Below, one piece after another: positions 2,660-64,000 of a stretch of 64,000 nt of DNA; the first letter of the stretch is position 1; the number at the start of each line of letters is the position of its first letter. The notes beneath the pieces are model-generated. The model made no database searches and was not told the DNA's origin. It was given only the letters and a program-made list of their open reading frames with translations. The position numbers and the translations under genes are program-made. The stretch comes from Globomyces pollinis-pini. Its lineage: Eukaryota; Chytridiomycota; Chytridiomycetes; Rhizophydiales; Globomycetaceae. The stretch covers positions 1-64,000 of the forward strand of contig MU621158.1 in NCBI GenBank assembly GCA_025399215.1, read 5' to 3'.

Positions 2660-3303
2660 TTATTTGATATAATCCAACTTTTCTACTTTCACTTGTCCAT
2701 CAATCAATTTATAAATGTATAATGAAAATCCAACTGGTGATAAATCCATTAGTACAAATGATGGTGTCACTTCTTCAACATACATACTAAATGCTCCCGT
2801 TGCTGATCCTGGATTAATATAGAACTTCTATTTGTTTTAGTTGATCCTAATGATAACCCCATTTTTTTCAAATGCTTGAAATTCATGAGTTCCTCCTGAT
2901 AGTAAAATATCAACTGTCATAGATCTAACTATTGATTCCTTCATAGAAACGTCATTATTATCCAATACATTCCCTTGAACTCCAATTTTAAACCCTTCAT
3001 ATTCTGCTATTTTAGATTTTTGAATAACAGGACAAATTGTTGATAAATATTCCATTGTTTGGGTTGACACATCACCAATGGGTATAATCACTTGAATTTT
3101 GCCTGGTACCTAAGAGATAAACTATCTGTAGAATCTATTACCAATAACTTTTTGAACTTGACTGGTAAATCAATCTGTCGCTCTGGTATATGAAAATCAC
3201 CTACCTTCATTAGTCCAATATAAATACCTTTAATTAATATTTAAACTACCCTCTTACCTAATGTAAGTCGTTATTCTACCCTACCTATTATCAAGATAAG
3301 CAT
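2660..3303 (-). CDS. VPS29: VPS29-like retromer subunit, shortened, metal site degraded
   Basis: Four exons give 165 residues. The 19-nt first exon reads MLILII, and across the first intron this becomes [27 protein letters not shown]. Later landmarks are DVSTQTMEYLSTICP, ILLSGGTHEFQAFEKNG and the diagnostic FYINPGSATGAF...TPSFVLMDLS ending KVEKLDYIK. VPS29 is the phosphoesterase-fold subunit of retromer, which recycles cargo from endosomes. Usual length is about 182-190 residues; here the block carrying RGDFD and the HGH motif is missing without any frameshift, the TGN motif reads IGD, and SGHTH reads SGGTH. Catalysis is therefore not expected, which fits a scaffold role. Intron 1 (3201-3284) divides into three GT-AG modules. 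Other introns lie near 2830 and 3112. Confidence 0.85.
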
Positions 3304-3440
3304 CCTAATTTTTGTTTAAAAATTTTACAGAAAGTCCAGTTGATAAAAAGAAGTTTTTATTAATATAAAGAAACTGAATAAAGAAAAGAAAGAAATTCTA
3401 GTATCTAGGTCTATGTGGTGTAGTCAAAGGTTGGATGGTA

Positions 3441-4541
3441 TCATGACAAGGAGTCTAAAAAGTTCCCCAAGATATCCTTTCCATAAGTGGTTTCATCAGA
3501 GCATGATGGACATCTTATTATAGTCAATCGCATCATAGGGATAATACATTCCCCGCATAATCGATGTGAACAGCTCAATGGTAAAGAGGCAAGTTTTTCA
3601 TTGCATTTACTGCAAGGATGAAGTTTAGATTGTTTCTGGTTTCTAGTTTGTCGGCCAAGGTCATCTTTCGTGTTTAATATTATCTGGTTTTGTTGTTCTG
3701 CTTGTTCTGCTCTATTCTATTTAAGTAACATTCATTCATACCTTAACTGTGCACGACGTTGATTCATCCCGCATTTATTGCATAAATATCCATCCATATT
3801 CTCTCGATCACGTCTCCATTTACCAGCAGATTTTGTTGTTGAACAGTGACCGCAAACTCTTTTGCTTGGATCAATAAATATTCGCTTCAAAGCAGGCTAA
3901 AAGTCAGACTATTCAAGTTACTTGAGATGATTCTGTGCTTGATTCTTCGGAATATGAGGAAGATGGAATAGAATCGATTGGTTCTGCACTTGGTGCTATA
4001 TGGTTCAGCTCAATCTTGATAACCCCATAATCTTCTTCATCTGCTTCATTACTGCAAAATGAGTTGAACATGAACTTACTGAGTTCGATTTGCATTTCTA
4101 CTTCTACGTTGGTTCATTCCACAATTATTACACAACCAACCATTCTTTTTGTCCAGATCTGACCTCCAATACCTTGAATTCTGTGTTTGACAGTGATTAC
4201 AACATCTTTGAGAGTGTTTCTTTTCAAGAAGTGGTGTCATTTGATCATCACAAGCAGTATGCCAACCTCGATAAGCTAAAGGGCCAGTCATTTTAGTTTT
4301 AATCAAATGTGTATGTTTTAGTTTTGTTACTGCGTTTCTGATTCCTGATGGTGTACTAATAAGTGTTACTAATTGAACTTGGTGGGGAGAACACAAAGAA
4401 CACAAACTTTTGATGAAAAGTGGACACTTACTAATTTAATCGGTCAGCTAAATCTTCATTTGTAAACCAGTCATTCGGATTTGCTTGTAAGAAACTTTTA
4501 AGTTCTTCACAAACATTTTTAGGTCGAACTGTGGTTATCAT
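3441..4541 (-). CDS. Winged-helix / double GATA-type zinc finger / RING protein
   Basis: Five exons give 313 residues from ATG 4541. Domains in order: an N-terminal helix-rich segment (EELKSFLQANPNDWFTNEDL, then TPSGIRNAVTKLKHTHLIK) resembling a winged helix; GATA finger 1 with CNHC, YWRSD and LCNNCGMNQRR; an acidic linker (EADEEDYGV to SSSYSEESSTESSQ); GATA finger 2 with CGHC, KWRRD and LCNKCGMNQRR; and a C-terminal C3HC4 RING (CSKC, CSHRLCGEC, CPSC). The fingers have a slightly longer loop than canonical 17-18 residues. GATA fingers bind DNA and RING domains recruit E2 enzymes, so a DNA-bound ubiquitin ligase is a reasonable inference. Introns are 76, 28, 25 and 30 nt. The two fingers look like an internal duplication. 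Confidence 0.8.
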
Positions 4542-5436
4542 CTACAATCCTGTCAATCAAAAATTAGTTACTGTATTTTAAGTTTGTAACGTTGCGAAAT
4601 CTAATTGAATTTTGTTTGTAAGTTGAAGCTTATTGTTATTTCGTTGTGATAACCTTTTGTTTATTTAATTAAAGTCATGAGTGTTTGTGGCATATGATCG
4701 CGAAAACTCCGAATGCTCCTCATTCGCAAACAAACATGTACGAGACAGTTGATCTATCTTGAGATATCAGATGGGAGCACTTTTCATAACAATCTTTGGC
4801 TACCCATTACATTAAATTGCAAAGGATCAAAAAGGTTACTTTTGTTTCAAGAAGTGATCTAAAAAATTATATGACTTTCAATCAAAAACATGGTATATTT
4901 ATTAGAATTATCAATTTTATAGCATTGGTTCATTCAATTTTTTTTGTGAAAGTGTTAAAATCATTCATTAAGCAACATTGGTTTGCTTTCCGTGCATTTG
5001 TCACATAGTGTCAAGGTTGGGATCTGTGTAAGAGAGGTCATAAATAGAAAATCAAATGTAAGCATCTCAAATTCCATTGATTCTATAATACAAACTTTAA
5101 ATTTCATCCCCAACATCAAATGCACGCAGGTTAACGTGGTTTCACTATTTGATATGATGAAATTCATATGATGAACCGCTAGATTATCCTAAAGTCGCCA
5201 TCGTCGTTCATTTCATGTGAGTACCTATAAAGATTTTTCAAATTAAACATTTTGTTATTTATTGAGAACCAGAATCATTGTATATTATCCAAAAAAAAGA
5301 CCAGAAAAATCTTTCCATCAGCGAACGAGTATCTAAACTGTTGACTGATCGGGAAATATTCAAGACAATCGGAAGACGAAAATAAATCACGTGTTGTTGT
5401 TTGTTTGCTTGTGAATTTCTTTGATTTTTAACGACC
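4542..5436. other. Intergenic, 895 bp, divergent promoter region
   Basis: The region separates the divergent GATA/RING and bromodomain genes. Short open frames at 4796-5008 (plus) and 4961-5167 (minus) overlap each other, lack homologous-looking motifs and are probably chance. Nothing else is supported. Confidence 0.45.
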
Positions 5437-6119: not shown

Positions 6120-6236
6120 TCGTCGATTGATTCTTACGTTCATTTCTTTCTTTTTTTTTTGAATATTTAGAATAAACTAATTAATTTTTTAATACACTGT
6201 TTATTCAATACTGAATTGATATTTGAACAAATAGTG

Positions 6237-11264: not shown

Positions 11265-11323
11265 AATAATATATCATAAATTTATAAATCCTATCTTGTT
11301 GCCATATCCTTTGATGGATCTTG

Positions 11324-19258: not shown

Positions 19259-19393
19259 TACCACCATTTTTCCCTTTACTCTCCATTACTAGTATGTAGT
19301 ATTATCGATCTATTTGAATTTAATCACATTATAATGACGGCCGATTACTTGACAACGGCCTTAAAAAAATGTGATTCAAAAAATCAAAAAAAT

Positions 19394-19465
19394 GCTTCGT
19401 ACAGGGATCGAACCTGTGACCTTGGCGTTATTAGCACCACGCTCTACCGACTAAGCTAACGAAGC
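19394..19465 (-). tRNA. tRNA-Ile (anticodon AAU, codon AUU)
   Basis: The minus strand folds into a full cloverleaf of 72 nt. The acceptor stem GCTTCGT pairs with ACGAAGC (7 bp). The D arm is GCTTAGTCGGTAGAGC, the anticodon loop is CTAATAA with anticodon AAT, and the T arm carries the standard GGTTCGATCC. There is no intron. The cloverleaf and an AAU anticodon indicate a nuclear tRNA gene with A34 expected to become inosine. Confidence 0.97.
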
Positions 19466-20400: not shown

Positions 20401-23400
20401 TCATTTAGGAAATATCATGGGTGATATACTATTCTTCTCTCTACTAAATAAATTACCTGGATTCATATCAATACGATAATGATGATCCCATCCATGAAAA
20501 TAACTTTGAAATTCATACTTTTCACTACCTTCGTTCATCCATATCACATCTGATGTTTTAAAATAGTTCAACATCATCTCTACTATACTTGTTCGTGATG
20601 ATCGTGGTGATTGTATAGGTGTCGTTGTCATCTTTCTCGTATCATTATTGGATTTAAAATATTGTTGAATAGAAGTTTTAGTGAAATTTAAAACAATATC
20701 ATTCACTTGTTTACCTACCCATACATATAATGGTGACTTGAAATTACTTTGTTGTGGATCCATAATCACACATACATCCGATCTTAAATCAGTTTGATTA
20801 AATAATTTTCGAAATTGAATTTGTAAATATCCTGGTTGACTGGTACATATCAAAAATATGGGTTGAAGATTGGTAACCGAAACATATCGAATTTTGGTTT
20901 GATTAAACAATTGACAAAATGATTCAGGTTCATTTCCTATCTACTTAAAATACATTGTATTTACCAGCTGGAATAATAGTCACATTTTCAAGTAATTTGG
21001 AGTTGGATGGATCTTTATCTCCTTCTGTCATCTCTGGTTTAAAGTGAGATTGTAACATATCAATCACTGTCAACACATTTTCATAATCATTCTCGATCAA
21101 TTGATTGACGTACCATAACATATGATGATCTTCGTTATGGTTGTATATGTAAAATGAATCAGATGAATTCAAATATTCAGATCGAAAGTCAATCTGAATG
21201 GCTCGATAAGTTTGGTAAACAGTATCAGTATGTATTTGATAACAACTTTGTTTTGTTGTTTTATGATGCATGTTTTTTGGTCCATAATGTAATACGTATC
21301 CATTTTCAATATGTGACAGTAGAACAAAAGGTTCTTTTCCAAATTCAACTTGTTGTACTTTAACTGTACAATGATACATTTTCGCCACCAATTCTTGCAT
21401 TTCTTGTAATGTTTTTAATTTAAAGGTGGAATAAGCCAACTTGTTTGAATGAACACCTTGAATAAAGTAAACGACACACTCTAGTTGATCTTTAGGATCC
21501 TCTTCGTTTTCTAAATCACCCAATTCCGTTGAAAAATCATACGGTTCCGTTAATATCTGTTGAAATTGATCATTATTTAATCTATAGACACATAGAAAAA
21601 GGTAAGCTTCATGAGTATAAAAGTGACCAATTTCAGATTCTTTTAATTGTACAAACTTTCCTTTTTGAAAAATAAAAGAGGTAAATGATTCCAATAAAGA
21701 ATTGATTTTATGACATGTAGCTTGAATTTGATCAACAAAAGATTCCGTTAGATGATCCATTACAACAGGTTTATAAATCACATCCATATCAATCTTGGCG
21801 GTAGTTTCTACCGTTAAATGTTTCAACACTATCATGAGAGATATGATAATTACTTTTCAATTTGACTTGTGTAAAATCATTTTTGATCTCCCAATCCTCG
21901 AATCGTAACTTGAATACTTCTGGTTCAGCTCCATCTACACATTTGGTGAATCCAACCCATTTTGGTCTTGGTACGGAAGCAACCACTTTCTACCTTATCA
22001 ATATAAAATCTATCATTTACAGCAAATAAATCAGTTGATACTTTTCTTAAATCTTTCCAAGAATCTTTTCCAAACCACATAAATAACTCTACACCAAAAT
22101 CCAATACATAACATCCATCTTTGATCAACATTGTTTGTTTTAATTTTTCAGTTGATACAATATGAGATTCTAAATCTGGTGCAACTTTTGGAAAGACTCG
22201 ATAAAGAATGGTACGATTGGATAATTCTACCAAATCACCTTTAAAATCTATTTTATTTTTAAATAAATGAAATGTTAAATAAAACTTACCTTCAATTTGA
22301 TCTTGATCACGATTACTAAAAAATTCCCAAAATCGATCATCTTCATCATTTTGATCTTGATCATTAATTTCATATCATTGGATACCTAATTCGATAACAG
22401 ATGCTTTACAAGATCGTTCCTGTTTATTGATTCTCCCCAATAACATTCTACCTTTGGATCGATGTTGAAGACTTGATTGTAATCCATTCCATTGATACAA
22501 TTCCAACCCTGAATCTAAAACATAAACACATTCTGATTTTAACGTAGAAATAATCAATTTAACCTAATATAAATGAACAATAGTGTTGAATACCAAATGT
22601 AATGTAACACCTTTCTTTCCTCGTAATTCATACAATCTCGTTGGATACTTTTTTTCTTCTGCCATAAATAAACCAGTTTCAGTTGCAAAAGTTTCATCCA
22701 ATAATGTTAAATCAGTACTAAACAATGATAAGAATAAATCAGATTCATCCGATTCCGTCTAAAAAAATAAAATCAATATCAAAAAATCATTTCAACCTCT
22801 CGAATGATTTTGGAAGGAGATTCCAAAAGGTTTCGTAATACTACTGAATACCTAACTTTAATACCAATTCATCATATTACCTATACAAAATCAATCACAA
22901 TCAAATATTTACATTGCAGCACAAAATTTTTTATCAGTTTCAGCTTCACTACCAATCCAAGTAAATAATTGATGTGTAATTTTATCATCTATTTCAATTG
23001 AATTCAATATAATGTAACAATCAGCAATACAGAATTGACCATAATAATGTGCATCTAATAAAACTGGAATTAAATTTTCCATTCGAAATATAGTTAATCC
23101 TAAAGTAGATCCTAAATTTTGATTGAAAATGGAAGAATAATCCACATTGGATAACGGAGATACGGGTGTCATTGGAGTCACTGGTGGTTTTAATGGTTGT
23201 TTGACTTTGATAGTTTCCAAATCATTGTGAATTAGAATATCAGGAATAGATGTATTAATGGAATGAAGGGATGGTATAGATGTATTTTTTCGTAATTTAG
23301 TCGAATTGACACTTTCCATTGATACATCCGATACAGATTCAATTGTTTGTGATCGAATGGGACTGGTTTGAAGTGCATTGATAAATATCGAACCTATATA

Positions 23401-24375
23401 TCATTGAATTCATCATCTATAATTACCTACACAATAAAATTAATCAAAATATAAAATAAAACCTCTTTTGATATCATCTTGATGAATAGACATTCGTGCG
23501 ACTCTAGAAACACGACCATCCAATTCGGGTTCTTTAATAAAATCTTCCATGGATTGTACAGCGGATTCTTGTTGAGGTATACCTGGTAGTAACTGACCAT
23601 AACTAGCACTTGAAAGATGTGAATTTGATAAATTGGAATTAGATTCAGAATAATCCGATTCGGTTTGTGATAATGATGTATCCGATTCATATGCATCACC
23701 AGAGAGTGGTGATAGATTAGACCGTGGTGAAATCAAATTTTGTTTTGAAGTAGATTCTTTCATATTGGATATCAGCAATGATAATTTCTCTTCTGAATTT
23801 GAATGATTTAATTTTTCAGATGATTTTAATAGATCGGCTGAAGATGAATGTCGAATTTGTCTTAATTGATCGGTTGAATTTGAATAACGTTTATTGAGTT
23901 TATCAAATGATTTGGAGTTGGTGATACGCGTACTTGTTCTTCGTATCGATCTAGTATCAATAAGTGGTTCTTGATCCAATACAGGTTGAACATTTGGTAC
24001 CGTTACTGAATTTTTTAATGAATCAATAGAGAAAAGGGATGATCTAGAAGAATTATCTTGTAATTTTGGATGATTTGAATTTAAATTTTTAGAATGTTTA
24101 GATTGATTTGAAATGGTATTATATCGTTTAACATGATGATGAGATTGACTATTTTTCTTTTTAGTATGAGTATTTGAAATTGTATTTGGACGTTTTTGTA
24201 GAAACATCACTGAAGACTTTCTTCTAGCAGAAGACCAAGAGGAAGGAGAAGCAGCACCATCTGAGAAAGCAAAAGAAATATCTGAAGTTGAAGTTGGTAA
24301 AACAGCTTCTTTGTTTACGAAAACAAGAGGAGGAGGAGGAACAACGGGAGGAGTGACAACAGGTAGCGTACTCAT
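20401..24375 (-). CDS. Villin/gelsolin-family actin-binding protein with long disordered N-terminus
   Basis: Ten exons give 1206 residues from ATG 24375. The first roughly 330 residues are disordered and Ser/Thr-rich after a proline run (TPPVVPPPPLVFV). Gelsolin-type repeats follow, recognised by actin-regulator signatures: FTWIGSEAETDKKFCAA, YELRGKKGVTLHL, VYVLDSGLELYQWNG, CYVLDFGVELFMWFGKDSW, VASVPRPKWVGFTKCVDGAE and the less conserved C-terminal repeats ending SPLYVWVGKQVND. Members sever, cap or bundle actin filaments, often under calcium control. Introns are 69, 61, 38, 30, 30, 42, 31, 25 and 28 nt; the first two are AG|GT tandem introns. There is no clear villin headpiece at the end. 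Its presence fits a lineage with animal-like actin regulation. Confidence 0.85.
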
Positions 24376-24546: not shown

Positions 24547-25999
24547 ATGACCGAACAAGCAGATGATCTGATTGATTATTCCTCAGATGAAGATGATGTG
24601 ACTCAAATAAAACCAACTCAAGCTGCAGTCGTCAAAGAAGAAACAAAACAAGGGACTTATGTTGGTATTCATTCCACTGGGTTTAGAGATTTTTTACTTA
24701 AACCTGAATTATTAAAGGCTATTGGAGAATGTGGGTTTGAACATCCTTCCGAAGTTCAACAGGAATGTATTCCTCAATCCATTTTGGGTATGGATGTGAT
24801 TTGTCAAGCAAAATCGGGTATGGGAAAAACTGCTGTTTTTGTTTTGGCTTGTTTACAACAACTTGATACTAACGTCCAATCTGCAAGTGATCCAGCTGTT
24901 GTCGTTCTATGTCATACTAGAGAATTAGCATTTCAAATTAAAAATGAATTTACTCGTTTTTGTAAATTTTTGGATGTCAAGACTGCTGTCTTTTATGGTG
25001 GAACTTCAATTTCACAAAATGTCGAAGTTTTGAAAAATGAAAAACCTCAAATTATTGTTGGAACACCTGGTAGATTATGTGCCTTGATTCGTGATAAGGC
25101 ATTGAACCTTAAAAGTGTAAAGCACTTTGTTTTGGATGAATGTGATAAATTGTTGGAAGCCATAGGTATGTTTTTATTGATGTTGATCTCTCTTTAGGTA
25201 AGTTTTTTTTGTGGGTGATTGATTTTGTAAAGATATGAGAAAAGATGTTCAAGATATATTCCGTGCTACTCCACATCACAAACAGGTCATGATGTTCAGT
25301 GCTACCTTGAGTGAAACTATCCGACCAATTTGCAAAAAGTTTATGCAAAATGTAAGAGTATTTGTATATTTAACGATTAGCCTTTGGAAATTTTCATTGA
25401 TGATCAGACAAAGTTGACTTTACATGGGTTACAACAACACTATGTGAATTTGGAAGAAAATGCGAAAAATGCTATGCTTAGTAACTTGTTGGACTCTCTC
25501 GAGTTCAATCAAGTAGTTATCTTTGTTCGAACCACTCAACGTGCTGATTCGTTATATTGGTTATTAGAAAATGCATCCTTCCCTTCAATGTGTATTCATT
25601 CCCGTATGCCACAAGAAGAAAGGTATTCATATTGAAAATTTATTTGCAAAGAATCAAAAAGTATCAAGCATTCAAAAACTTTGAAAAGAGAATCCTTGTG
25701 GCCACTGATGTTTTTGGACGTGGGATTGACATGGAAAGAGTCAATGTTGTAATTAATTATGATATGCCAGACACACCTGATTCATATCTTCATCGAGTAA
25801 GACTTTTAGTCTAAACAAGTAGGTTGGACGAGCTGGTAGATTTGGTACCAAGGGGTTGGCGATTTCATTTATTACCAGCATACAAGATGTTGATAAGAAA
25901 ATTGATGATAAAGCACTATTGAAAGCTATTCAAGATCGATTTGAAGTCAAAATCAGTCCAATGCCTGAAAAGATTGACTCTGCTGCATATCTAGGATAA
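24547..25999 (+). CDS. SUB2: DEAD-box RNA helicase SUB2/UAP56
   Basis: Five exons give 433 residues from ATG 24547. It is the spliceosome and mRNA-export ATPase of the TREX complex. Signatures: acidic N-terminus [14 protein letters not shown]-motif [12 protein letters not shown], Walker [24 protein letters not shown], the diagnostic DECD (not DEAD), [24 protein letters not shown] and [13 protein letters not shown]. Introns lie at 25166-25232 (tandem, 32+35 nt), 25352-25380, 25623-25651 and 25797-25822. Divergently paired with the villin gene, with only 171 bp between the starts. Confidence 0.97.
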
Positions 26000-26197: not shown

Positions 26198-27425
26198 TTA
26201 TAAATTTTCCATTGCTAACCAGATTAGTTTTACTATTCTTACCAGCTCTTAAAAATTGCATGTTGAGTTCCATATCCGGAGAAGCCAACGTATAATCATC
26301 CTCAGGTGGAGGTAAACGTCTTTGATTTCTTGTAGAACGTTTACGATTTAAAGATTTTGTATTTGAAGCAAAGAAAGTATTTTTATCCCTATAACCTTCT
26401 TCCATCACACTACCAATCTAACAAGTTAAATTTGAACAAAGTACTTTATGAAATCCTTCTGAAATTGTTTCAATACAATCTAATTCTGCTTCTACTGATT
26501 TGGATAATAATTCTAAAATGTATGGAACTGATTCTTGTGATAAAGTATCTGAATAAGTATGATTGATATGAGTTAATAGTTTAACTTCTTCAGCCAATTC
26601 GACTCTGAGATTGAAAGACTAGTTAGAATTAATAATTGGATATTTAAAAACCATATCCATCTGTTCTTTTGTTGTAGTTTTCTTTTTCCTTAACTTTTGA
26701 GCAGCTTCTTCTTCGATATGTATTTGTCGAATTAACTCTTGAATCTTTACTTTATTAGTATCTTGTTTTGCCTAGAAATGAATTTTTAACAAGTATTGTC
26801 ATACCTAGTGGTTAGAAATGATGTCATTGGGGTACTTTTGTTATAATAGGGATCTGTTGGACGCTTGCCATCAATGGCTCTTCCACTTCATTTTCAAGAG
26901 TATTAGCCCAAGTCTGATGTGCATTTGCAATTAATTGAGAAGAATCGATTAAAAAGTCCAAATCAGTGACTAATAAAGAATCAGTGATTTCAGCTAATAA
27001 TGAGATTTAATATAGTTACCAGCAGGTACACAATCAGCAAAATCTTGTAATTCACGAACAAAAGTTTCTGTAGCAGCTGACATTGCTTGAATTTGACGTT
27101 TATAAGCACTTAGAGCTTGAACAAACGTTTGATATTTCATTAAAGATAATGTTTTTAATTCATCCGATTCATAACGTCTTGGGTCAGCCGGCCCACCAAC
27201 GACAGATACTGATACATCATGTCTACCAACAGCAAAAGGGACAATTCCAGCTGAAATAGGTTTTTTTAATTCAGGTGAAGATAATTGAAAAGAATTTCGT
27301 ATATTTGAATCGATAGAATTATTTCTTACGTCTATACCAGAATCTACAGAACGTTTCATTAGAGGAGTAGTTCTAATTGGAGAAGGACCAGAAATATCAT
27401 TTTTAGAAATTCTTTTTGAATTCAT
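26198..27425 (-). CDS. BAR-like (Ivy1/IMD-type) helical protein
   Basis: Six exons give 349 residues from ATG 27425. The central 230 residues are long amphipathic helices with the rhythm of BAR-type membrane-curving domains: LKTLSLMKYQTFVQALSAYK, ATETFVRELQDFADCVPA, DFLIDSSQLIANAHQTWANT, IQELIRQIHIEEEAAQKLRK and VEAELDCIETISEGFHK. Both ends are polar and basic. Yeast Ivy1 and IMD proteins are candidates by pattern, but assignment is tentative. Introns are 26, 64, 33, 27 and 28 nt; the second (26772-26835) is an AG|GT tandem of 31+33 nt. The last intron gives the terminal exon AMENL; reading through it would extend the frame to 26133. Confidence 0.6.
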
Positions 27426-27747: not shown

Positions 27748-28420
27748 TTACTGTATAAATATACACCATATTAAAGATATCACATTACCAAAAAATGATC
27801 CATACACTAATGGAATAGGCCATACTTGAATAGGTGACTGCCAATCCAATGGTAATATAAAACTACCTGCTCATTATTTTACTATCATTACCTAACTATT
27901 AAATTGAATTATCATTACCTAACCAACTTCCTAATCCGGTTAATAATCCTTGAATAATAAATCGACGTTTCTTTTTTAAATTTAAAGATTCAAATTCTTG
28001 AATTATAGAAATACTTTGAAAATCAAATCCAACATCCATTAATAATATAGATACAAATAATGAATATAAAATAGTTTGATGTTTCCAACTACTTTTAGTT
28101 GATGATGTTTTTACATTGTAATAGGTGCTCCCATTAATATCATCAAAAAACAATAAAATAAACTAGAAATAAAAACATAGTAAACTATAGGAATGAATTT
28201 AAACTAGAATATAAACAAAAATACAAATTACCTGATGATATGGAGTAAGATTTAATTTGTTTAACGACAATTTAATGACTACAAGTGAAAAATTGATTAA
28301 ATAAAGTGATTGAATAGGATCTTTAATGATATTCACTCCAGGTATTAGATAAAATCCAACTAGGGTACCAATAATAACGTTTAAATACTTCAATTCCATG
28401 TAAAAAGACAAAAATATCAT
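27748..28420 (-). CDS. GPI11: PIG-F/GPI11-like GPI-anchor synthesis protein
   Basis: Three exons give 183 residues from the first in-frame ATG at 28420 (28399 is an alternative). PIG-F/GPI11 is an ER multi-pass protein that partners the GPI ethanolamine-phosphate transferases. The diagnostic C-terminus is clear: LTGLGSWLG joined to SFILPLDWQSPIQVWPIP, then VYGSFFGNVISLIW. The N-terminal two thirds carry hydrophobic helices (YLNVIIGTLVGFYLIPG, SLYLINFSLVVIKLSL, LYSLFVSILLMDVGF). Introns are 69 nt and 52 nt. The second (27867-27918) is an AG|GT tandem of 27+25 nt whose two halves both begin GTAATGATA, as if recently duplicated. An earlier 5' exon cannot be excluded. Confidence 0.8.
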
Positions 28421-28811: not shown

Positions 28812-31800
28812 ATGACCGAACTGACCAATCAAACAAATGGACAACAGATGCAAACGAATGGACTAACAAATCAAACGAATGAAAATGAAGGAATTTCTTT
28901 TATTCAAACTCAAAGTCCAAATGAAAGTCATATCATTTGGATATTATCAAAACTACCTTCTACAAATATTCAACTATTAAAGTTATTATCTTCTTTATTA
29001 TTCAAATTATCTACATCAGATCATGTATAATTTTATATCATTAACAAAAAAGTTATCAAATGCTCTATTCTTGAAATTATCAGAAATGTATCATTCAAAA
29101 TCTTACTCTTCAAAATATATCATCATTTGTTTGGGTAATTTATGCGTTGGTTTGAAATCTATTCAATTATTATCAAAAATTTGGTTATTATTTTATAATG
29201 CTCTCATCATCGAATCAGATCCTATTGTAAGTCTTTAAAAAAAATATTATTTCAATTCTTTACAATCTATATAATCATTTCATTAATCTATTTGTTTAGA
29301 ATATTATTTCAATTCTTTAGAATCTCTATCATAATTTCATTAATCTATTTGTTTAGAATATTATTTCAATCTTGAAAAGTTTGGAATTATTGACAAATGA
29401 GAATAAATCATTAGCTCAAGAAATTACTCCAAAGATACTACCTACATTACATTCATTATTATTTAAAAACAATACTATAAAATGGGAGAGAAAAATGGAA
29501 TCAGATTCAGAATTTTCAGATATGGATTCAATTCATCCTTTAAAGTAAATTTGAACCTTTTTATTTTATTTTAGAATATCAAATTCACAAAGATATGAAT
29601 GGAAAATACAAATCCAGAGTTTAATTTGCTTACAATCGTTAGTCAAGGTAATCTAATCAACCTTTAACCCAATCTCAGGTACAAATTACAAATCTAACTA
29701 ATATAAAGGTATACGAAATATTTACATTTATATCACAGGTACATACAACATGATATAACAAGTTGTATAGCAATGTCCAAAACTGATACAACCACATTGG
29801 GGAAAGTTTTTACCTTCAGATATCAAAATTGAAAACACACTTGGAATCATTATTCGTCAACATCCAAACCAATTAGTTCGCTATGAAGCATGTAAATTGA
29901 TATCGACCTTTTTTAATGATTCCAAATATCTTGCCATTGCTTCACACGAGTACTTTTTTTTCTTTATACCTTATCGTTTCTTAGTGAGAGGAAATCGGCA
30001 TTTACGTCATTATCACAAATGTTGGCCAATTATATTAGCTTTACTTTGGATTTTATACTTCGAACATTACAGAATGAAAATGATAATGAGTTACTACATC
30101 ATTTATTTAATGTAAACATCCAAAAGTATTGATTGTTTTACAGGTGTTGCAAACATTACTTAATCATTGTGATTTGAAAAATTTACAAAATAGATGTATT
30201 CCCAATATTTTCACACAAGTCAAGAATCAACTTGATCAAGGTTTGTATTTCCCATCACTAAACACATCAGAAAATGATCAATTCTATCAAGCATTAGACT
30301 GTCTGGCAACATTAGTAGATCAATTAGATATATCCATCAGTGAATCGGAAGAAATCATTGAATATGCTATATCATTAGTTGACAAATTCAAATCCGATCA
30401 AAACCAGAATATTCAATTGGCTTTATTACATGTGATTTGCTCTGTTGCCAAAGTTTCTCCTACTGTAGTTTGGTAAATAATACCATTGACTTAATTTATA
30501 GGCAACATTGGAAATCATTGAGTTTATATTTAGAAAATGCTATTTCCAATCCAAATCAGCATATTTGTTTTTCTGGATTAAAATCCATTGAACAGTTTTG
30601 TCATTCTTTAAATCAAGAGAATGTCAATATAGTAAGTGATTCCACATGGTTTATTGTAGGATTATACAGTCACTTGGTGGACTAATGTTTTTGAAATCAT
30701 CTCAAAGAATTCTATTTGGGTATCCGAATCGTTTGCAATCAGGGCTTTGGGATGTACTTTACTAAGTCATATTCCATTTTCAATATTCGAAGAGTTTCCT
30801 GTATAACTTTTTTACAACTAACACACAAAGGTTCGATTAAAGAATTTTTTAATCATGACTTGTATGAGTTTCACTGAAGATGAACATGAAGAGGTTCGAG
30901 CCAATAGTTGTGGTACGATGGGAACATTTATCATCAATACTACAGTAACTATCATTGGGAATCATTTATTGTTAGGATGTATTTTTGATTGATCAAGCAG
31001 TGACACGTTTACCGATTCTATGTCGGGATAAAGTTTTAAAGGTTCGAATTCGTGCTTTTTGGGCCTTGGGAAATTTAGCTGATCATATGTATAAACAAAA
31101 AACTATTATTTTAATGGATCAACGTATTGGTGAAGATCATGCCAATGAAACCATTCTACTACCTCTATTTATTGATTTGTTGGAATCATCTATTAATGGT
31201 TGCAAGGATCATGAAAAGGTATTTTGAATATTTGATGTTGATCTTAGATACGAAGTCATTCCATGAGAGCTCTTGGATTTTTTTATCAAATCTTGGATGA
31301 TAAAATTTTAAAACGTAGTAAAACCTTGACTATCTCTGCCATCAATCATGTTTTGAAGAATATTACCACAGGACCATTTAAAGTAAATTTTATTTTTTGT
31401 TTAATTTTTTATTATTATAGAATCGTTGGAATGCTTGTTATTGTCTTCACCACATGGTTTCGAATCCCAATTTCCCCATGGGACCAAATTACCCCTATAC
31501 CAAAACCATTTTCGATACACTATCCAATGCATTGATTGACAGTGTTAATTTCAAAGTTAAAATAGCTTGTTTAAAAGCTTTATCTGGACCCAATTACCAT
31601 CAATATCAAATTGAAACTTCATCAACCTTTCAAACCATTTACAAAATCATTTCAACAATCAAATCAAGTTTGATGACACTTGATGTAGTATTATCTAAAG
31701 CTACGTACAATGAAAAGTCCAAATACATTCAACTTTTTATAGATGCCATTGAGAATAGTATCATTCATTTCAAGATTGTCTTGGATGTAGAATGGAATTC

Positions 31801-36874: not shown

Positions 36875-37961
36875 CTATATAAATAATGGGTAAAGACTTG
36901 TATATGTGCAATACCAAGTGGTCAAAATTGAAAATACAATCAACCCAGTGATATACAATGTCGCTCCCATTCCTGTATATTAGTTCAATAATTTGTAACC
37001 TCGTAAATGGGGATCATTTTCCCAAAATGAAAGATCCGGCAAACCAATATAGTTACAAATCATATGGCTAACAATACATGATATTACATTTCCTTCATTT
37101 TGTTAGTATACATAGCAATATACCAGTTTGGAAAAATAGAAATGTAGCAAAGAATCCAAATAAACTCGTATATGTCAATTGTAAGACTGTGGTTTAGTAG
37201 TGAAAATATCAAACCAGCAATTGCTAAAGCATTCTGAAAAGTTCCTCCATTTTTAATATTCTCAATCATATGGTGCAAGTGTGCTTATGGTGAGTATTGG
37301 TATATATACCTATTCCAAACAATAGAGGTGATCCAAAGATAATGGCAGTTTGACTTAACCCACCAGCAACTAATACTGGTACCATGCAAGATCTGAAGAG
37401 TAACTCCTCTATAACTGGTCCCTATGCTCTGAATGCAATTTGACTGTTACAATCTACAAATTATTAATTTGATGTAAATCACTATTATATTCCTGAAATT
37501 TATCCAAGTACAAGTACAGTTGTTCCATAAACTGTTCTGTTTATAATCTACCCAGATTGGACCAATAAAAAGAACAGTCGTCAGTACCTATAACATTAAC
37601 ACTTATTTCAAACCTAGTCTTATTTATATTACAATCCTACAGTCGAGATCAATACAGATGGTAAGAAGTTGGTAAAAGTGAATCCCATCCAAGTGCCAAC
37701 TACCTTTAAAGAATACTATCAAGTCAAAATCAATCAAATAATAGAGTAACAAACATCATTGAAAGTGTAACGAACAATTGCAGTGGATATAATCGAACTT
37801 ATGATTGAACTTTGAATTCGTTTTTTGATGACTTCAACACTATCTCTTGGTAATTTACGTTTGTTTGGAAAGATGTAGAAGGAAGATACTAAGATTGTTG
37901 GAACAGTGATACAGATAATAGCAGCTGTTGAAAACGAAATCAATCCTTTCGGTATTTCCAT
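36875..37961 (-). CDS. RCE1: CAAX prenyl endopeptidase RCE1
   Basis: Eight exons give 269 residues from ATG 37961. The enzyme removes -AAX from prenylated proteins in the ER. Catalytic blocks are all present: GPVIEELLFRSCMVP (paired Glu), LLFGIAHLHHM (His), and VSHMICNYIGLPD (His/Asn). Other support comes from KLPRDSVEVIKKRI, RNII+GPVIEE across an intron, and LTYTSLFGFFATFLFFQTG. Introns are 51, 53, 61, 26, 28, 31 and 27 nt. The 53-nt intron (37588-37640) is an AG|GT tandem of 27+26. Every in-frame stop lies inside a predicted intron. The start is the first ATG before helix 1. Confidence 0.9.
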
Positions 37962-49306: not shown

Positions 49307-49347
49307 ATAAATGACAATAACAAGAAAATCAAAGCATAGAAAGAAAG

Positions 49348-53180: not shown

Positions 53181-54950
53181 ATGAACGCTACAAATTTCAT
53201 AAACAATTCATTCGCTCCTTTGCCAAATCAATCCATCGATATCATCTCTCCTGCTTCAAATAAAGTCATCGGTAAAGTTGCTTTGTCTTCCCCTGATCAG
53301 GTCGACGCTGCCGTTCAAGCCGCTCATAATGCTTTCTTGTCCTGGAGGTTCTCTCAATAATCCCTAATCCTAGGTAAACTATATTATCACTAATCCTGCA
53401 GGTAATCCCTACCTTTCTTATTCTTAAATAGTTCTCTCACCGTCAAATCTAGAATTCAATACTTGATTCGTTTCCATCAGCTCGTCATCAAGCACAAAGG
53501 TGAGTGCCTTATTGTTTAATTCTCCCAGATGAACTCGCTGATCTCATTGTTCTGGAACATGGAAAAGTATCTATCACTTATCTTACAAATTAGACCAAAG
53601 AAGAAGCTTTGGCGGAAGTCGCAAAAGGAAATGAAACAGTCGAATTTGCCCTATCTCTTCCTCAAATTTACCTTGGAACTCACTTGGAAGTCAGCAGAGG
53701 AGGTACCCTAATCTTCTCTAACTGTAAATAGTCCATTGCCAAGATGTTCGTAGACCGCATGGTGTTGTAGTTTCCATCGTCCCTTTCAGTATTGTTATGA
53801 ACAATCTTATGATTAGATTTCCCTTTCATGGTTCCAATGTGGACTTTACCTATCGCCATCGCAGCTGTAATTACCTACCATTTATCTCTAGGGAAACACC
53901 TTTGTGTTAAAACCTTCCGAAAAGGTCCCATTAACTATGGGATTTACTATGAAATTGATTCAAGAAGCAGGTATTCAACACTTCAATATGATTTACATAA
54001 GGATTCCCTGAAGGTGTCGTCAATATCGTTCATGGTACCGCCTCAGTCGTCCAGCAGCTTTGCGACCATCCGAAAGTCAAAGCAGTCACATTTGTTGGAA
54101 CATCACATGTTGCCGAATTACTCTCCCATCGTTGTAGACTCTTAAATAAACGTGTCTTGTGTCTTGGTGGTGCTAAAAATCACTTGGTCGCATCCCCAGA
54201 TTGTGATATTGATATGGCTTCATCTGATATTGTTGCATCATTCTCTGGCTGTTCTGGTCAACGTTGTATGGCCGCATCCGTCTTACTTACCATTGGATCA
54301 CAACCTAAATTATTGGAAGCAATTGTGAAAAAAGCAGAAGCACTTGGACCAGCTCAATCTGGCAAAAACATTGGACCTGTCATTGATGCCATCTCACGGG
54401 ACAAAATCGTTCGATATATCGAAGAAAGTGAAAAAGGAGGTGCTAAAATATTACTGGATGGTCGTAAATGGATCACCAGGGATGATTTGAAAGCAAGTGG
54501 TGGATTTTGGGTCGGACCAACCGTCATTTTGCACACCAACAAAAAAGACTCTGCATTACATGACGAAATATTTGGACCTGTGATCAGTATCTATGAATGT
54601 AGCACCAAAGAAGAAGCCATCGAGATTGAAAATGCAAACCCGTATGGAAATGCTGGTAACCACATTTTTACAATTAACGACAGCTTGCATCTACACCAAC
54701 CAAGGTGCTATTGCTGAATGGTACACCAAACGATTCAGTGCTGGTATGCTCGGAGTTAATATTGGGGTAAGACGTCTTAACTAACTTGAAGGTACCCGTA
54801 CCTCGTGAACCCTTCTCCTTTGGTGGAATCAATCGATCCAATTTCGGTGATTTTGATATTACTGGTTTGGGTGGGTTAGAATTCTTTACTCATCATCGTA
54901 AAATCACCACCAAATGGACTCCTCCAAAGGAAGCCAGCTGGATGAGTTAA
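53181..54950 (+). CDS. ALDH6A1: Methylmalonate-semialdehyde dehydrogenase (CoA-acylating)
   Basis: Ten exons give 487 residues from ATG 53181 (MNATNFINNSFAPLPNQSID). The enzyme belongs to valine and thymine catabolism and makes propionyl-CoA from methylmalonate semialdehyde. Family-specific blocks: SWSSLTVKSRIQYLIRFHQ, VEFALSLPQIYLGTHLEVSR, MVPMWTLPIAIAAGNTFVLK, VTFVGTSHVAELL, LGGAKNHLVASPDCD, catalytic Cys in FSGCSGQRCMAASV, GVNIGVPVPREPFSFGG and the end HHRKITTKWTPPKEASWM. Introns are 84, 29, 27, 29, 28, 25, 31, 28 and 25 nt. The first (53348-53431) is three AG|GT-joined modules of 26, 28 and 30 nt. No mitochondrial leader is obvious. Confidence 0.95.
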
Positions 54951-55128: not shown

Positions 55129-56860
55129 ATGACGATTTCCATTTTTCACTTTCAACCATGTCAGTAAACAGGCAGTAAAACAACAACAAGTAACGTCTAG
55201 CTTAGAAGTAACCGACACACAATCAGGAGAAACACATACAATCCCAATCGTTGAAGATACAGCCAGTAGTACCGAATTTACAAAATTGGGAATCACCATC
55301 TATGATAATGGCTACCTTAACACTGCAGTCTGTCGTTCATCAATTGTAACATCCATATTCTAACATTACCAGAGCTACATTGATGGTGACAAGGGTATTT
55401 TACGATACCGTGGGTATGATATTGAAGAGTTAGCTGAAAAGTCATCATTTCTCGAAGTCTCTTATTTGCTCATCTTTGGAGATTTACCAACTAAGCAACA
55501 ATTCCAAGTATGGCTAAAAGCAATTAATTGAAAATAGATTTGGGAAAATCGAATGATGAACCATACGTTTATCCATGAAAACTTGATTGACTATTTACGA
55601 GTGATCAACCACAAACAATTAACAAATTTAGAGCTTTCGGTATGATGCGCATCCTATGGGAATGGTGATATCAGCTCTAGCCACTCTGTCAACTCTACAT
55701 CCTGAAGCCAATACTGCACTCAATGGCGATGTACGCAAAATCACATATTGACTCTACAGGATATTTACGATTCCGAATCCATGGTTATCAAGCAAATATT
55801 CAGATGTTTGGGTAAATTACCTACTATCGCAGCTTGTGCTTATCGTCATCGTATCGGTCGATCTTACAATTATCCTTCGGATCAATTAGGATATACTGAA
55901 AACTTTCTATACATGTTGGATAGATTATCAGAAATTAATTATGTTCCACATCCGAAATTGGCACATGCATTAGATGTGATTTTCATTTTACATGCTGATC
56001 ATGAATTGAATTGTAGTACTGCAGCGATGCGACAAATGGCATCTACAGGAATCGATCCATTTATTTGTTTATCAGGTTGGTTTATTTTTTATATATTGAT
56101 TTATACGTTTAGGTGTGATAGGTATGTTTCTAATTATAAAGGTGCTGCTTCAGCTTTATATGGACCATCTCATGGTGGTGCTAATGAAGCTGCTCTCAAG
56201 ATGTTGGAAGGTATTCACTTCACACCTCTTTTAATTCTATAGAAATCGGCTCGGTTGAAAATATCCCAGCATTCCTTGAAGTAAACTGACAATAATTGAT
56301 GGATAGGATGTGAAAGCAAAAAAACGTAGATTGATGGGATTTGGACATCGTATTTATAAATCGTATGATCCAAGAGCAAAAATTTTAAAGAAAATATCTC
56401 ATGAAGTATTTGAAGTTATGGGACGTAGTGATTTGATTGATGTTGCCATGGAGTTAGAACGTATTGCATTAAATGACGGTATTTATTTGAAAAAAATGAG
56501 GTGTTAATTATCTAGAATATTTTATCAAACGTAATTTGTATCCAAATGTGGATTTCTATTCCGGTATTATTTACAAAATGATGGGATTTCCAGTATTTAA
56601 AAAGTAACCTAACCGCTAGACTGATTTCTTCCCCGTATTGTTCTGTCTTGCCCGAACAGCAGGTATAACAACTGATAAATTAATAATTAGGATGGTTGGC
56701 ACATTGGAAAGAGCAACTGAAGGATCAAACTCCTATTTTCAGACCAAAACAGGTATACGTTGGAAAATCAAAACGTGCCTATGTACCAATGCATCAAAGG
56801 AAATCTACTGAAGATCCTGCAATGCCTACTCGTTCTCGTAAAGATTTATCTACACACTAG
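55129..56860 (+). CDS. Citrate synthase, bacterial/peroxisomal-type
   Basis: Twelve exons give 455 residues. Landmarks: [77 protein letters not shown] (His), [19 protein letters not shown] (His), [33 protein letters not shown] (catalytic Asp), and the C-terminal [20 protein letters not shown]. The C-terminus, HWKEQ...RPKQVYVG, is that of the hexamer-type enzymes used in bacteria and plant peroxisomes, not of typical mitochondrial synthases. No SKL tail is present. Introns are 31, 27, 30, 31, 29, 66, 32, 26, 37, 27 and 28 nt; the 66-nt one (56076-56141) is a 37+29 tandem. The first exon ([10 protein letters not shown]) rests on phase only. The product supplies the citrate or glyoxylate cycle. 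Confidence 0.92.
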
Positions 56861-56929
56861 TCAATTGACACAATATAATACATTGTTTGAATCATTTGTC
56901 TTCACATGTATATTGATTTATATGTAATT

Positions 56930-59900: not shown

Positions 59901-60593
59901 TCCAAACATGGATTGTGTGCCAATAAAACTCTGACTTTGATTCAAACTAGCATGCTTTTGGTTTAACAAGTTTCCAGTTGACCCCCCTTTATCTTTTCCT
60001 AAATAAATCTGATTTGAAATATACCTGAATAGAATCAATAAACAGCTATTATTACCTGTTAAATGAAATTAATGAACATTGAACAAAAAACCTATGATAA
60101 GTTCACAACACAACGCAAACCTGAACAAATCAAAAACAAAAATCTACAAACCTTTCTTTTTAAATGAAAATATAGATCCCATAGAACCTCGTGATTTTGT
60201 CAATTCCTTCACATTTGATAAACTAGACGAACTATTATTAAGTGAACCAGTAGGATGCACAACAATAGCCTGAATCCCTTGTAAACTGCTACTGGTCGAA
60301 ATAGATGATGATGCATCTGAAACTCGTTTTTGATGTTGACGTGATCTTCTTCGATCTTGAGATCCATCTGAACTTGCCAACATCTGATATGATTGTGATT
60401 TCATAATTCCTAATATTGATTGATTGGAAATATTTTACCTATTTTGGGAGTTGCCTATTTTTTTGGACATTTAGTACTCAACTTTTTTTGTTACCTCAAA
60501 TGTTTCGTTTTCATCAATGTCTTCAATGATAATATCTCGTAGTGGTCTTAGTAGGTTGATTTCCTCTCGCATATCCAGAATTGTCGGTTCCAT
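56930..60593 (-). CDS. Ras guanine-nucleotide exchange factor with ubiquitin-like/FERM-F0-like repeats
   Basis: Nineteen exons give 1009 residues from ATG 60593. Order: a disordered Ser-rich N-terminus (QDRRRSRQHQKR, DASSSISTSSSLQ); several ubiquitin-fold segments resembling talin F0/RA domains (VFGLYHPKLGTWLDSIRSLT; TYGLYMTDTNVWLNPNQMIN); a REM domain (KSGTLDDLIINLTAV, YIKTFLLTYQSFTDTSTVIQ); and a C-terminal RasGEF domain of about 240 residues (VAQQLTFIEWTLFSDLA, ALTRRFNTNARWVTQSILE, ASGSYKNYRASIKSIAPPCI, GTYLTDLTYIEDGNPD). It should load GTP on a Ras-type GTPase. Introns are mostly 25-31 nt; intron 3 (59999-60151) is five AG|GT-joined modules, and a 16-nt exon lies between introns 1 and 2. 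The spliced length is an exact codon multiple. Confidence 0.88.
59999..60151 (-). other. Five-module tandem intron
   Basis: On the minus strand modules are 60121-60151, 60092-60120, 60056-60091, 60025-60055 and 59999-60024 (31, 29, 36, 31, 26 nt), each beginning GT and ending AG. Removal of the 153 nt keeps the RasGEF frame (FKKK joined to GKDKGGSTGN). Confidence 0.8.
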
Positions 60594-61214: not shown

Positions 61215-61617
61215 TAAAAATATGGTTCGTATAATGATAACTGATTGTAGAGTGAAAATGAATGGAAAGAAAAGGCAGCGGCTACAAAAAAGAGTTATGG
61301 TGCACCAGCATCGAAATAAAGTGCATTGATAGGATATTAATCGTAATTTTTGAGGAAATGCTATCGTGAAATGATATGTAGCATTTATTTCGACTATTCC
61401 AGAACAGCAGGTTTTTATCATATGGACAAAATTATAGATAAGATTGATGAAATGGTTTAAGAGGATGTTTCAAGAAACATAGTACGAAAATCAGAAATGG
61501 TAAATATAAGTAAGCTTAAAGATAGACGTGAAAACCACGCAATAACAAACGCTTGTGTTTAAGCAACTGGTGCGTGAGTATTTATTGGGCTAATAAATAT
61601 AGAAGTTGAGAGTCGAT
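61215..61617. other. Probable last exon of the mini-cortactin gene, then intergenic
   Basis: 61252-61319 is coding-like on the plus strand (see mini-cortactin). From 61320 to 61617 nothing is recognised. Confidence 0.4.
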
Positions 61618-62325
61618 TTATAATGGCTTTGTAGCTTGATAGCAGTAATAATCAAAACCACCCTTTTCTGAATCCAGCGTATGAACGGTAATAACGAATT
61701 CAGGAACAAGTTCTAAAAACCTAAACGTTAGAATATTTGGATAACCTAAGTATAATTAATTTAGGAACAAAAACCTTTTTCTAAAATGAGGTTGAACAAA
61801 AGTGATATGTAAGAAGGATCCACCAGGCTTAAGTTGTTTATAAACCTGCTTGATATAAATAGCGACTTTATCCAAAATTTCCTGTTCAGGATCCCAAGGA
61901 TCAAACTTTGACACCAAGAGTGCATCCAATGTACCTTTATCCAGAGCGATATCGAACGTACCAGTGGACTGAATACATGCCTCTAAATCGTAAATATCGC
62001 CCTCCAGCCAAGTCATGAGAGGCATATGGGCACAACGTTCTTTCATTTGAGATATGACAAGAGGAGAGTAATCAATATTGGTGATGGAGTGGTAACCAAT
62101 ATTGTATAAATCTATAGGCAGAGTACTGTTTCCACAACCCTAAAGACATAAATAGAGAAATGATACCAAGTGAATAATGGAATGTGAAGGTAGCATAAGA
62201 GAGGTGAGAATAGGGCATTGGTTTAGCGACAAGAACCAGTCGAAAGTATCTTTGTCGTCAGAATATCTAGTATCCCAGTACTGTTTGAGTTCATATTCGG
62301 AATTGTGAGCAGGTAAGTTTTCCAT
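61618..62325 (-). CDS. Class I SAM-dependent methyltransferase, METTL13/EEF1AKMT4-like
   Basis: Three exons give 208 residues from ATG 62325. The family start is clear: LPAHNSEYELKQYWDTRYSD, DTFDWFLSLNQCP. Motif I is formed across intron 1 (IIHLGCGNSTLP), followed by NIGYHSITNIDYSPLVISQM, the acidic turn WLEGDIYDLE, FDIALDKGTLDALLV and LKPGGSFLHITFVQPHFRKR. Relatives methylate lysines of eEF1A. Introns are 27 nt and 54 nt; the second (61721-61774) is a 29+25 tandem joined AG|GT and its removal gives RKRFLELVPEFVIT, running to the stop at 61618. Confidence 0.88.
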
Positions 62326-62459
62326 AGTGCTTTAGTGTAGTAAAAATATTAATATTAGTAAGTATCCAAGGTAGCAATTGCTGGTAATTCAAATACTGGT
62401 AGAGAGTGTCTGGTTGTGTTGGAGAGACAGGAAAGGAATAAGTAACACAATAATTTTCA

Positions 62460-63077
62460 ATGATGAACAACAGTTTTCAACCGATCCAATTACCAGATGA
62501 TGATGTGGAAGCAGCAACCGGTGGTGGGTATGTGAACAAGTATGAGACTAGTTTGGCAATTCGCTTGGACTTGGAAGCTGCTTTGGCTTATTTGTTTGGT
62601 ACTGTCAATAACTTCTACGTCGTATTATTACTTACTACTACTTACTACTACTACTTATATTACTATTAGTAACGGATAGTACTATTAAATTTGTGCTTGA
62701 TTACTTACTAATACCATTAGGTGGTGTATCTGCTATCTTACTCATTGTACTGGAATTAAAAAATGATTACGTTCGCTTTCATGCTTGGCAATCTTTACTG
62801 TTATTCGTCTCGTCTCTGGTATCCATATCAAACTCACTTCTAGTCAACCATCGTATTCCTCTCATTATTCTCTTCCTTCCTCTCTTCATTAGCCTTCTCT
62901 TTATATATCTTATCAACTGTTTACTTGGCGTAATTTAATTATCTGTTAATTGTTTAGCTACAAAGCTTACTTGTTCTCTGATTCACTCGATAGATTCAAG
63001 TTCCCTTACCTTGGACAGGTATCTAATCATCTTTCATTGACTACTAGATTGCTGAGAACTGGGTGGATGCTGAATGA
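62460..63077 (+). CDS. UPF0132/Tic20-like four-helix membrane protein
   Basis: Five exons give 137 residues from ATG 62460. The family signature is YETSLAIRLDLEAALAYLFG joined to GVSAILLIVLELKNDYVRFH, then AWQSLLLFVSSL. After two small introns come helices 3-4 and a conserved tail, YKAYLFSDSLDRFKFPYLGQ and IAENWVDAE, as in fungal UPF0132 proteins. Function is unknown; the fold resembles Tic20/DUF4870. Introns are 122, 25, 28 and 29 nt. The 122-nt intron contains a TTACTACTA run. Only the spliced frame carries the conserved tail. Confidence 0.88.
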
Positions 63078-63241
63078 TTTATAGTACTAGCTAGTGTTTG
63101 ATTATAATATACTCTTTTGTTACCATGACTTATGAATTGGTATCCATCATTTGTACTATAACTACAATCATGGATCGTATTAGATACTATTGACTACCAT
63201 TGTAGTACCTTGTCCACTCTCTCGTCACATTCTTTTCATTA

Positions 63242-64000
63242 ATGTTTCTCATCAGTGCTCCTGCCAAAGTTATTTTACTAGGCGAACATGCCGTTGTCTA
63301 CAACAAGGTTTCCTTTTCCCTCTTATTCTCTTAGGTTTCTCTTCTTGTACAATTAACTCTCAGGTATGATTCTTTTATTAGCTCAATCACCCTAAGGTAC
63401 CTTACCTTTCTTAATCAAAAGGTATCTCTATATCTATTAATCCCAGCCTTGTATCGCCGTCAGTTTAGATAAACGATCGTTCTGTTTGGCTAAATTATCG
63501 GATTCTCATAATGTTTTGGAATGCCCTGACATTGGTTTGGCTTTTGATTCGTTACATCCTTCATCTGGATTGACTGAAAATGCTGATAAAGCTTTAAAGG
63601 CCTTCTTGTGCTTGTTGGAAAAGACTAAATTCTCTGGTAATGTATCACTATTGAACAAAACTACACTTTCTATCACAAATTCACCTGATTCTACGTAACG
63701 GATTAACAAACTAAAAACACTGAAAGTTGTTTATCTTTTTAGTCTGATTATGAATCATAATCGCTGGATTTTGTATAGACAAATCTATTCGTAAATATGA
63801 ATTCTCTTCGTTATTTCATTGTTAACAAAACTGCCTTACGGATTATCATTACTATTATCAAACACTTTAATCCCTGATATTGAATCTCATCAACACATTT
63901 ACCACCTGTTCACGTTTACAAAGTACTAAATTTTAGGATGCCACTTAACGATTAAAAGTGAAATCCCAGTAGGGGCCGGACTAGGATCGTCCGCTTCATA
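63242..64000 (+). CDS. ERG12: Mevalonate kinase, 5' part
   Basis: Starts at ATG 63242 and runs off the right edge. Exon 1 encodes MFLISAPAKVILLGEHAVVY, the family start. After a 139-nt intron (63308-63446) the frame resumes PCIAVSLDKRSFCLAKLSD and continues LTENADKALKAFLCLLEKTK. The final bases give CHLTIKSEIPVGAGLGSSAS, the GHMP ATP-binding loop. Mevalonate kinase phosphorylates mevalonate in sterol and isoprenoid synthesis. The large intron divides exactly into five GT-AG modules. Exons between about 63638 and 63937 could not be fixed; that stretch holds stops in all simple readings and must contain further introns. Confidence 0.9.
63308..63446 (+). other. Five-module tandem intron
   Basis: Modules 63308-63334, 63335-63363, 63364-63396, 63397-63421 and 63422-63446 each start GT (gttt, gttt, gtat, gtac, gtat) and end AG (ttag, tcag, taag, aaag, ccag), with no base between them. 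Removal of all 139 nt joins NK to PCIAVSLDKRS in frame. Confidence 0.8.

Follow-up and report, generated by a model that had tools for sequence, protein, structure and literature searches.

Arrays of abutting minimal introns in the chytrid Globomyces pollinis-pini, with tandem duplication as their probable mode of growth

The first 64,000 nucleotides (nt) of contig MU621158.1 of the chytrid fungus Globomyces pollinis-pini (order Rhizophydiales; GenBank assembly GCA_025399215.1), the whole stretch analysed and hereafter the window, raise the question of why some of its introns are divided by internal AG|GT junctions into pieces that each have the size of an ordinary intron. A preliminary description of this DNA had named thirteen such introns with 23 AG|GT junctions; all of them are present, with modules of 25-37 nt and exactly that number of junctions, eleven lie where they had been placed, and the two given without coordinates are those of the RasGEF and mevalonate kinase genes (listed below). 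We propose that each of these introns is a row of complete minimal spliceosomal introns set end to end, with only zero-length exons between them, and that such arrays have grown by tandem duplication and are spliced module by module; we give this reading a probability of about 0.8. The modules measure about 23-37 nt, and each has donor, branch-point and acceptor signals like those of single introns.

Introns of the genome (18.5 Mb in 459 contigs) were called with our own gene finder, whose training set of 314 kb consists of the window and a further 250 kb. The first version was blind to branch points and to arrays, and a run in which long introns were freely permitted fused genes and was superseded; the later version, which has a neutral prior on exon length, called 850 introns. 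The resulting set of 24 arrays (63 modules) and 759 single introns underlies the counts below, except where the whole genome is named. The single introns have a mean length of 28.4 nt (standard deviation 2.9), most being of 24-33 nt, with the donor GTA in 653 of the 759 and a YTAAY-like branch point mostly 7-13 nt upstream of the intron end. The donor is GTT in 87 of the 759 singles, compared with 7 of the 24 first donors of arrays.

The neutral-prior finder called 39 internal exons of length zero. It called two of 1 nt and one of 2 nt, lengths that its design partly disfavours, and the whole range of 3-14 nt yielded 11, with 0-3 cases at any one length within 1-14 nt. Of the seven internal exons of 15 nt, six belong to a single gene whose exons are repeated. 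The 39 junctions make up the 24 arrays, of which 16 have two modules, 3 have three, 3 have four and 2 have five; this spread has more long arrays than expected from independent placement by our own arithmetic. Scaled to 18.5 Mb, the junctions correspond to about 2300, on the order of 2000, in the genome. Tiling by AG|GT is more frequent than chance would allow: with the first finder it succeeded in 12 of 35 introns of 48-70 nt, whereas 200 shuffles averaged 1.8 and never went beyond 5. Among the 256 tetramers AGGT ranked first, tiling 15 of the 82 introns between 48 and 130 nt; the runners-up, which include the overlapping GGTA, reached 12. For branch points, long introns from the first finder and from a version with a flat length prior were pooled, and 21 of these 152 tile. 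The branch-point score exceeds 0.5 at 83% of the 36 distinct internal junctions picked by AGGT position alone and at 83% of the true acceptors (n = 759), as against 16% of intergenic AGGT (n = 235; p = 5e-13), and the donor scores at internal AGGT junctions are near those of true donors.

The same spacing is visible genome-wide in the raw sequence, free of any gene model. Pairs of TAGGTA number 379 at a spacing of 23-36 nt, 39 at 8-21 nt and 29 at 103-116 nt, part of the last falling within arrays, while the reversed patterns number 270, 336 and 234, respectively; among the first 100 of the 379 matches, the spacings centre on 25-30 nt. Such a pair is possible from one intron between an exon ending in TAG and an exon starting with GTA, but none of the 759 local single introns (0/759) has this arrangement, and of the nine local pairs the called arrays account for six and the GPI11 array for one, with two falling in neither. 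A triple cannot arise from one intron, and triples occur 105 times at 23-36 nt spacing and once at 8-21 nt (reversed, 10 and 22 times). Patterns written for exons of 0, 1, 2 and 3 nt gave 131, 44, 63 and 64 matches, with 261, 137, 180 and 189 in the reversed controls, so that the zero-length excess by this measure is merely about 1.5-fold after the control and the spacing tests are the stronger ones; the pattern GTATGT-N16-TAGGT, with 7 genome-wide matches and 16 in its control, was too strict.

The arrays of the window are as follows.
3201..3284, minus strand: VPS29, three modules (27+30+27); AG|GT tiling, and the whole 84 nt is removed without a gap relative to human VPS29.
22852..22912, minus strand: villin-like gene (label from the preliminary description), two modules (32+29); finder and tiling.
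23394..23462, minus strand: second array of the villin-like gene (same label), two modules (36+33); finder and tiling.
25166..25232, plus strand: SUB2 helicase, two modules (32+35); gap-free relative to DDX39B.
26772..26835, minus strand: BAR-like gene (label from the preliminary description), two modules (31+33); finder and tiling.
27867..27918, minus strand: GPI11/PIG-F, two modules (27+25); gene model, with the PIG-F domain crossing the junction.
29648..29770, plus strand: HEATR6-like gene, four modules (31+30+30+32); finder and tiling.
37588..37640, minus strand: RCE1 candidate (label from the preliminary description), two modules (27+26); sequence tiling only, the gene models not crossing it.
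53348..53431, plus strand: methylmalonate-semialdehyde dehydrogenase (MMSDH), three modules (26+28+30); gap-free relative to solved homologs.
56076..56141, plus strand: citrate synthase, two modules (37+29); gene model, with a junction gap-free relative to citrate synthase 3.
59999..60151, minus strand: RasGEF gene, five modules (31+29+36+31+26); finder and tiling.
61721..61774, minus strand: methyltransferase, two modules (29+25); finder and tiling.
63308..63446, plus strand: mevalonate kinase, five modules (27+29+33+25+25); finder with flat length prior and tiling.

The neutral-prior finder recovered nine of these 13 arrays completely and that of mevalonate kinase partially, and missed those of GPI11, citrate synthase and RCE1. 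The junction of the HEATR6-like array corresponds to residue 216, within a DUF4042 match (residues 202-376), whereas the RasGEF domain lies away from the array of its gene, the Pfam methyltransferase domain stops before the array, and no Pfam family was assigned to the BAR-like protein of the window. The HEATR6-like gene also has a 57-nt tandem duplication (window 29243-29370, plus strand; 2.2 copies, 94% alike), which lies in or beside a long intron and creates no AG|GT junction. An Rfam scan of 294 of the 314 kb (the window and L001-L023, with L024 and L025 left out) found no small nuclear RNA and one transfer RNA, whose gene is at window positions 19393-19465 on the minus strand.

Comparison with homologous proteins indicates that the arrays compared are removed in full. 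When the whole array is taken out, the junction matches homologs without a gap in SUB2 (two modules), MMSDH (three), VPS29 (three), PRPP synthetase (two), citrate synthase (two) and mevalonate kinase (five modules, all 139 nt out), and the spliced SUB2 model is identical to the deposited Globomyces pollinis-pini protein P0001 across 433 amino acids. The removal of a four-module array of PDHK is likewise gap-free, while a three-module array of the same gene adjoins a small gap; the PDHK paralogs of the genome are too distant for a comparison of intron positions. In a PHYHD1-like gene, ten modules are read by AG|GT and their removal is gap-free, the finder having split off six and kept the last 117 nt whole. 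The pantothenate kinase gene (L051, C451:1800-4800, minus strand) has three arrays of 9, 7 and 5 modules, with gap-free junctions at the first two, the alignment being weak downstream of the seven-module array. Its third array is read by eye as 32+29+32+27+25; the finder parses it differently, with an insertion relative to homologs, and an alignment by eye with a relative's protein, 79% identical, has no gap at either the second or the third array. No identical full-length pantothenate kinase was found among the deposited matches listed; the model from Globomyces sp. JEL0801 agrees with ours by eye outside its garbled parts. Judged by homology, the interiors of arrays of 2-10 modules thus encode no residue in any of the nine genes compared.

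How such arrays might grow is suggested by an E1 gene on C203 (ThiF and E1_FCCH domains), in which a 29-nt unit, AATTAATTCATTATAG|GTAATATCAAACT, is perfectly doubled in tandem and followed by its own first eight bases. The duplication spans an AG|GT junction, from which follows a simple rule: a duplicated segment that holds AG|GT yields a module of the length of the unit. An array would start from an AG|GT at an exon-intron border, as the first duplication requires it; duplication of a segment of about 28 nt holding AG|GT, with any breakpoints, would then give AG|GT...AG|GT, that is, one extra intron of unit length. The spliceosome would remove the modules singly and in any order (zero-nucleotide recursive splicing), and therefore each added unit would be nearly neutral. 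The rule would account for the frequency of long arrays and, through the need for AG|GT at the border in the first duplication, for an excess of AG immediately before arrays: 18 of the 24 follow an exon that ends in AG, compared with 207 of the 759 single introns (Fisher p = 2.5e-6), and among GTA donors only the figures are 11 of 16 arrays and 155 of 653 singles. This enrichment is not an effect of gene position, as the upstream AG occurs at 29 of 117 first introns.

Likeness among modules was measured genome-wide for 100 of the 105 TAGGTA triples, which fall into 61 loci by our own grouping and were chosen by junction pattern and not by likeness, against a null of 20,000 randomly drawn pairs of single introns whose ends were the same. 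The 99% level of this null was passed by 28 neighbouring pairs (16 loci), the 99.9% level by 22 (14 loci) and the maximum by 15 (10 loci). Neighbouring modules are identical on C12 and C168 (28 and 32 nt), as are two modules of the pantothenate kinase gene on C451, and three modules of an array in a short-chain dehydrogenase gene on C68 are 89-96% alike. This count supersedes that of 23 arrays hand-picked for their chaining or repetitive look, 4 of which were beyond the null maximum, with 12 of 103 adjacent pairs beyond the 99.9% level. Three arrays (L029, L030 and L036) have 10, 6 and 9 modules, the end modules initially printed having proved to be coding. Growth by tandem duplication is therefore seen directly in a minority of arrays, and we infer it for the rest. 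The preliminary description had suggested such a multiplication of introns and an alignment of modules as its test; the suggestion holds at the E1 gene and at 14 of the 61 loci, while the arrays of the window itself have no sign of recent copying.

Clearly related neighbours also occur in arrays at C194:3382-3560 (minus strand), C225:6566-6725 (plus), C152:40559-40683 (plus) and C165:23216-23307 (minus). In a protein kinase gene on C1 (L002; 11683-11964, minus strand, in the joined C1 piece), which Pfam identifies as a protein kinase and which we take to be of the LAMMER type, seven introns of 25-30 nt are separated by six near-identical 15-nt exons that encode RRYDD-like repeats, the exons being conserved and the introns diverged, and the same gene has a five-module array. 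This is a sister event, in which the duplicated unit took in the exon. Upstream of the E1 gene (L026, C203:14300-15100) the sequence is dotted with numerous GGGTTA-like words, reminiscent of degenerate telomere repeats.

Several observations weigh against growth by duplication followed by removal of single modules. In the 314 kb, Tandem Repeats Finder (TRF) found a repeat in none of the 24 arrays (0/24), those of the window included, and only one of 63 within-array pairs exceeded the 99% random level. Adjacent modules score slightly above neighbouring single introns of one gene (mean 4.9 vs 3.75, p = 0.03), and modules of one array hardly above modules of different arrays (median 4 vs 3). Genome-wide, 47 of the 61 loci are without module likeness at the 99.9% level, and in five of the 24 arrays both the upstream AG and the downstream GT are lacking. 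The upstream-AG enrichment could reflect selection on donor context, and the reversed pair counts mean that the forward word is rare elsewhere, besides being enriched at 23-36 nt. Finally, simple introns of at least 70 nt exist, a sound example being the 74-nt intron that interrupts the UbiA domain of a COQ2-like protein, so that length alone would not forbid the removal of an array in one step.

The lack of likeness in most arrays would suit a history without multiplication, in which long ancestral introns gained AG|GT by point mutation as the spliceosome came to prefer about 28 nt. Position points the same way: other organisms often have long first introns, and the arrays tend to lie near the 5' end of their gene, at a median relative position of 0.21 compared with 0.45 for singles (p = 0.0005), being the first intron in 9 of 24 cases as against 117 of 759 singles. 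However, a subdivision of this kind does not predict that upstream exons end in AG and leaves the identical modules on C12, on C168 and in pantothenate kinase, together with the 29-nt duplication on C203, unaccounted for, and we regard it as unlikely, if the best placed of the alternatives.

Somewhat less probable is that an array is one ordinary intron removed in a single step, with internal AG|GT as unused relics of growth, as the simple introns of 70 nt and more would permit. The deposited model of PDHK does take out most of the four-module array as one stretch, but in doing so it translates part of module 1, retaining VIRYGK, and loses a conserved histidine after GQ that is kept in homologs. 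Moreover, the internal junctions retain branch points and donors at the level of used sites in arrays with no remaining similarity between modules, and it is because these signals persist in diverged modules that stepwise removal seems the probable course.

To about the same low degree we credit the insertion of new introns at AG|GT targets, existing intron borders included, by reverse splicing or introner-like elements, the alternative that the preliminary description had set beside duplication. Insertion would show the same preference for AG|GT and keeps some room in the arrays where duplication is not visible; against it, a search of the 314 kb for similar introns at different loci brought up no family. 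Of its 822 introns and modules, the 1302 pairs with a 10-mer in common were scored, the best reaching 20 over a length of 30, and the clear similarity that does occur is between neighbours within one array. That the modules are an artefact of a home-made finder on AT-rich DNA is hardly credible: the gene models are indeed our own and many long 'introns' of early versions were wrong, but the raw genome-wide spacing counts, which need no gene model, already refute it, and homology at the nine genes also speaks against it.

Not every long intron is an array. The heading claim of the preliminary description, that long introns are integer multiples of the minimal one, was too sweeping, as simple long introns occur; its accompanying remark that both classes exist, with about 11 introns over 45 nt that do not split, had allowed for these. 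In the 314 kb, 28 single 'introns' of at least 45 nt were left over, several being finder errors and some real. The neutral-prior run gave no single intron of 45-69 nt and some of 70-81 nt; with a flat length prior there were 19 calls of 50-69 nt with coding flanks, nine of which tile by AG|GT and the rest of which are doubtful by eye. The empty zone of 45-69 nt suggests a length limit or two length classes, in a manner that depends on the finder used. Hairpins seemed by eye to be a second means of shortening long introns, but 27 long singles folded no more stably than their shuffled versions (mean z 0.03, four with p <= 0.05).

We lean, by a small margin of confidence, toward a wider view in which introns in this lineage come in quanta. 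Units would be removed singly by a spliceosome adapted to about 24-40 nt, and a duplication with AG|GT would add a self-removing intron almost free of cost, so that arrays might grow and shrink like satellites made of introns, with the number of introns free and the protein constant. The origin and multiplication of introns is an old question with few cases in which the source sequence is known (PMC4974935). One genome with arrays at all stages, from identical neighbours to fully diverged ones, offers a way to watch introns multiply, and the simple duplication rule explains why exact breakpoints are unnecessary. The arrays would offer zero-nucleotide recursive splicing in a dense and natural form, with a step about every 28 nt, and would test the upper limit of intron length for a spliceosome suited to short introns. 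They may also explain broken gene models in such genomes, as in PDHK and in the pantothenate kinase of Globomyces sp. JEL0801.

The nearest known counterparts of the junctions are the zero-nucleotide recursive splice sites, or ratchet points, of animals, which have the same AG|GT, with the acceptor abutting the donor without an exon nucleotide, and at which introns are removed piecewise (PMC8605326 and PMC13149111). In the Globomyces arrays, likewise, an acceptor AG stands directly before a donor GT within a region that, judged by homology, is removed in full. Recursive sites are found chiefly in long introns, and those of Drosophila need a cryptic exon at the site (PMC8605326). Unlike them, the Globomyces junctions recur every 28 nt or so, for up to 10 units, and not in very long introns, the arrays ranging from 52 nt (GPI11) to 285 nt (PHYHD1-like gene); their modules would be too short for a cryptic exon.

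Stwintrons are similar in being complex fungal introns that need consecutive splicing (PMC9024468, PMC5639578 and PMC7138796), but they are nested within the donor, branch site or acceptor, nearly all being of type [D1,2] (PMC12403724), whereas the Globomyces modules lie end to end. A search for nested introns chose five from 9408 candidates above the score limit, one of them [D1,2], as against 37 end-to-end junctions in the same run. Introners resemble the arrays in mass intron gain but are dispersed copies of one element (PMC9860276), while the Globomyces copies are neighbours in one array; an introner family was looked for among the 759 single introns and 63 modules by means of the 1302 scored pairs, and none was found.

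Duplication of a segment with AGGT is known to supply both the GT and the AG of a new intron, and in fission yeasts repeated 24-bp AGGT segments are spanned by introns; the cases described in PMC4974935 concern exonic segments and are isolated, with one intron across the copies. A tandem duplication of this type is found at the E1 gene on C203 and at 14 of the 61 loci, and not in the 24 arrays of the 314-kb set. In Globomyces, by contrast, what is duplicated is a stretch within or at an intron already present, the copies are minimal introns complete in themselves, and the pattern recurs genome-wide. No report of arrays of abutting minimal introns was found in the open-licence literature, judged by titles and abstract openings; the ingredients were already known, and it is their combination into genome-wide arrays of abutting minimal introns that appears new within the literature searched.

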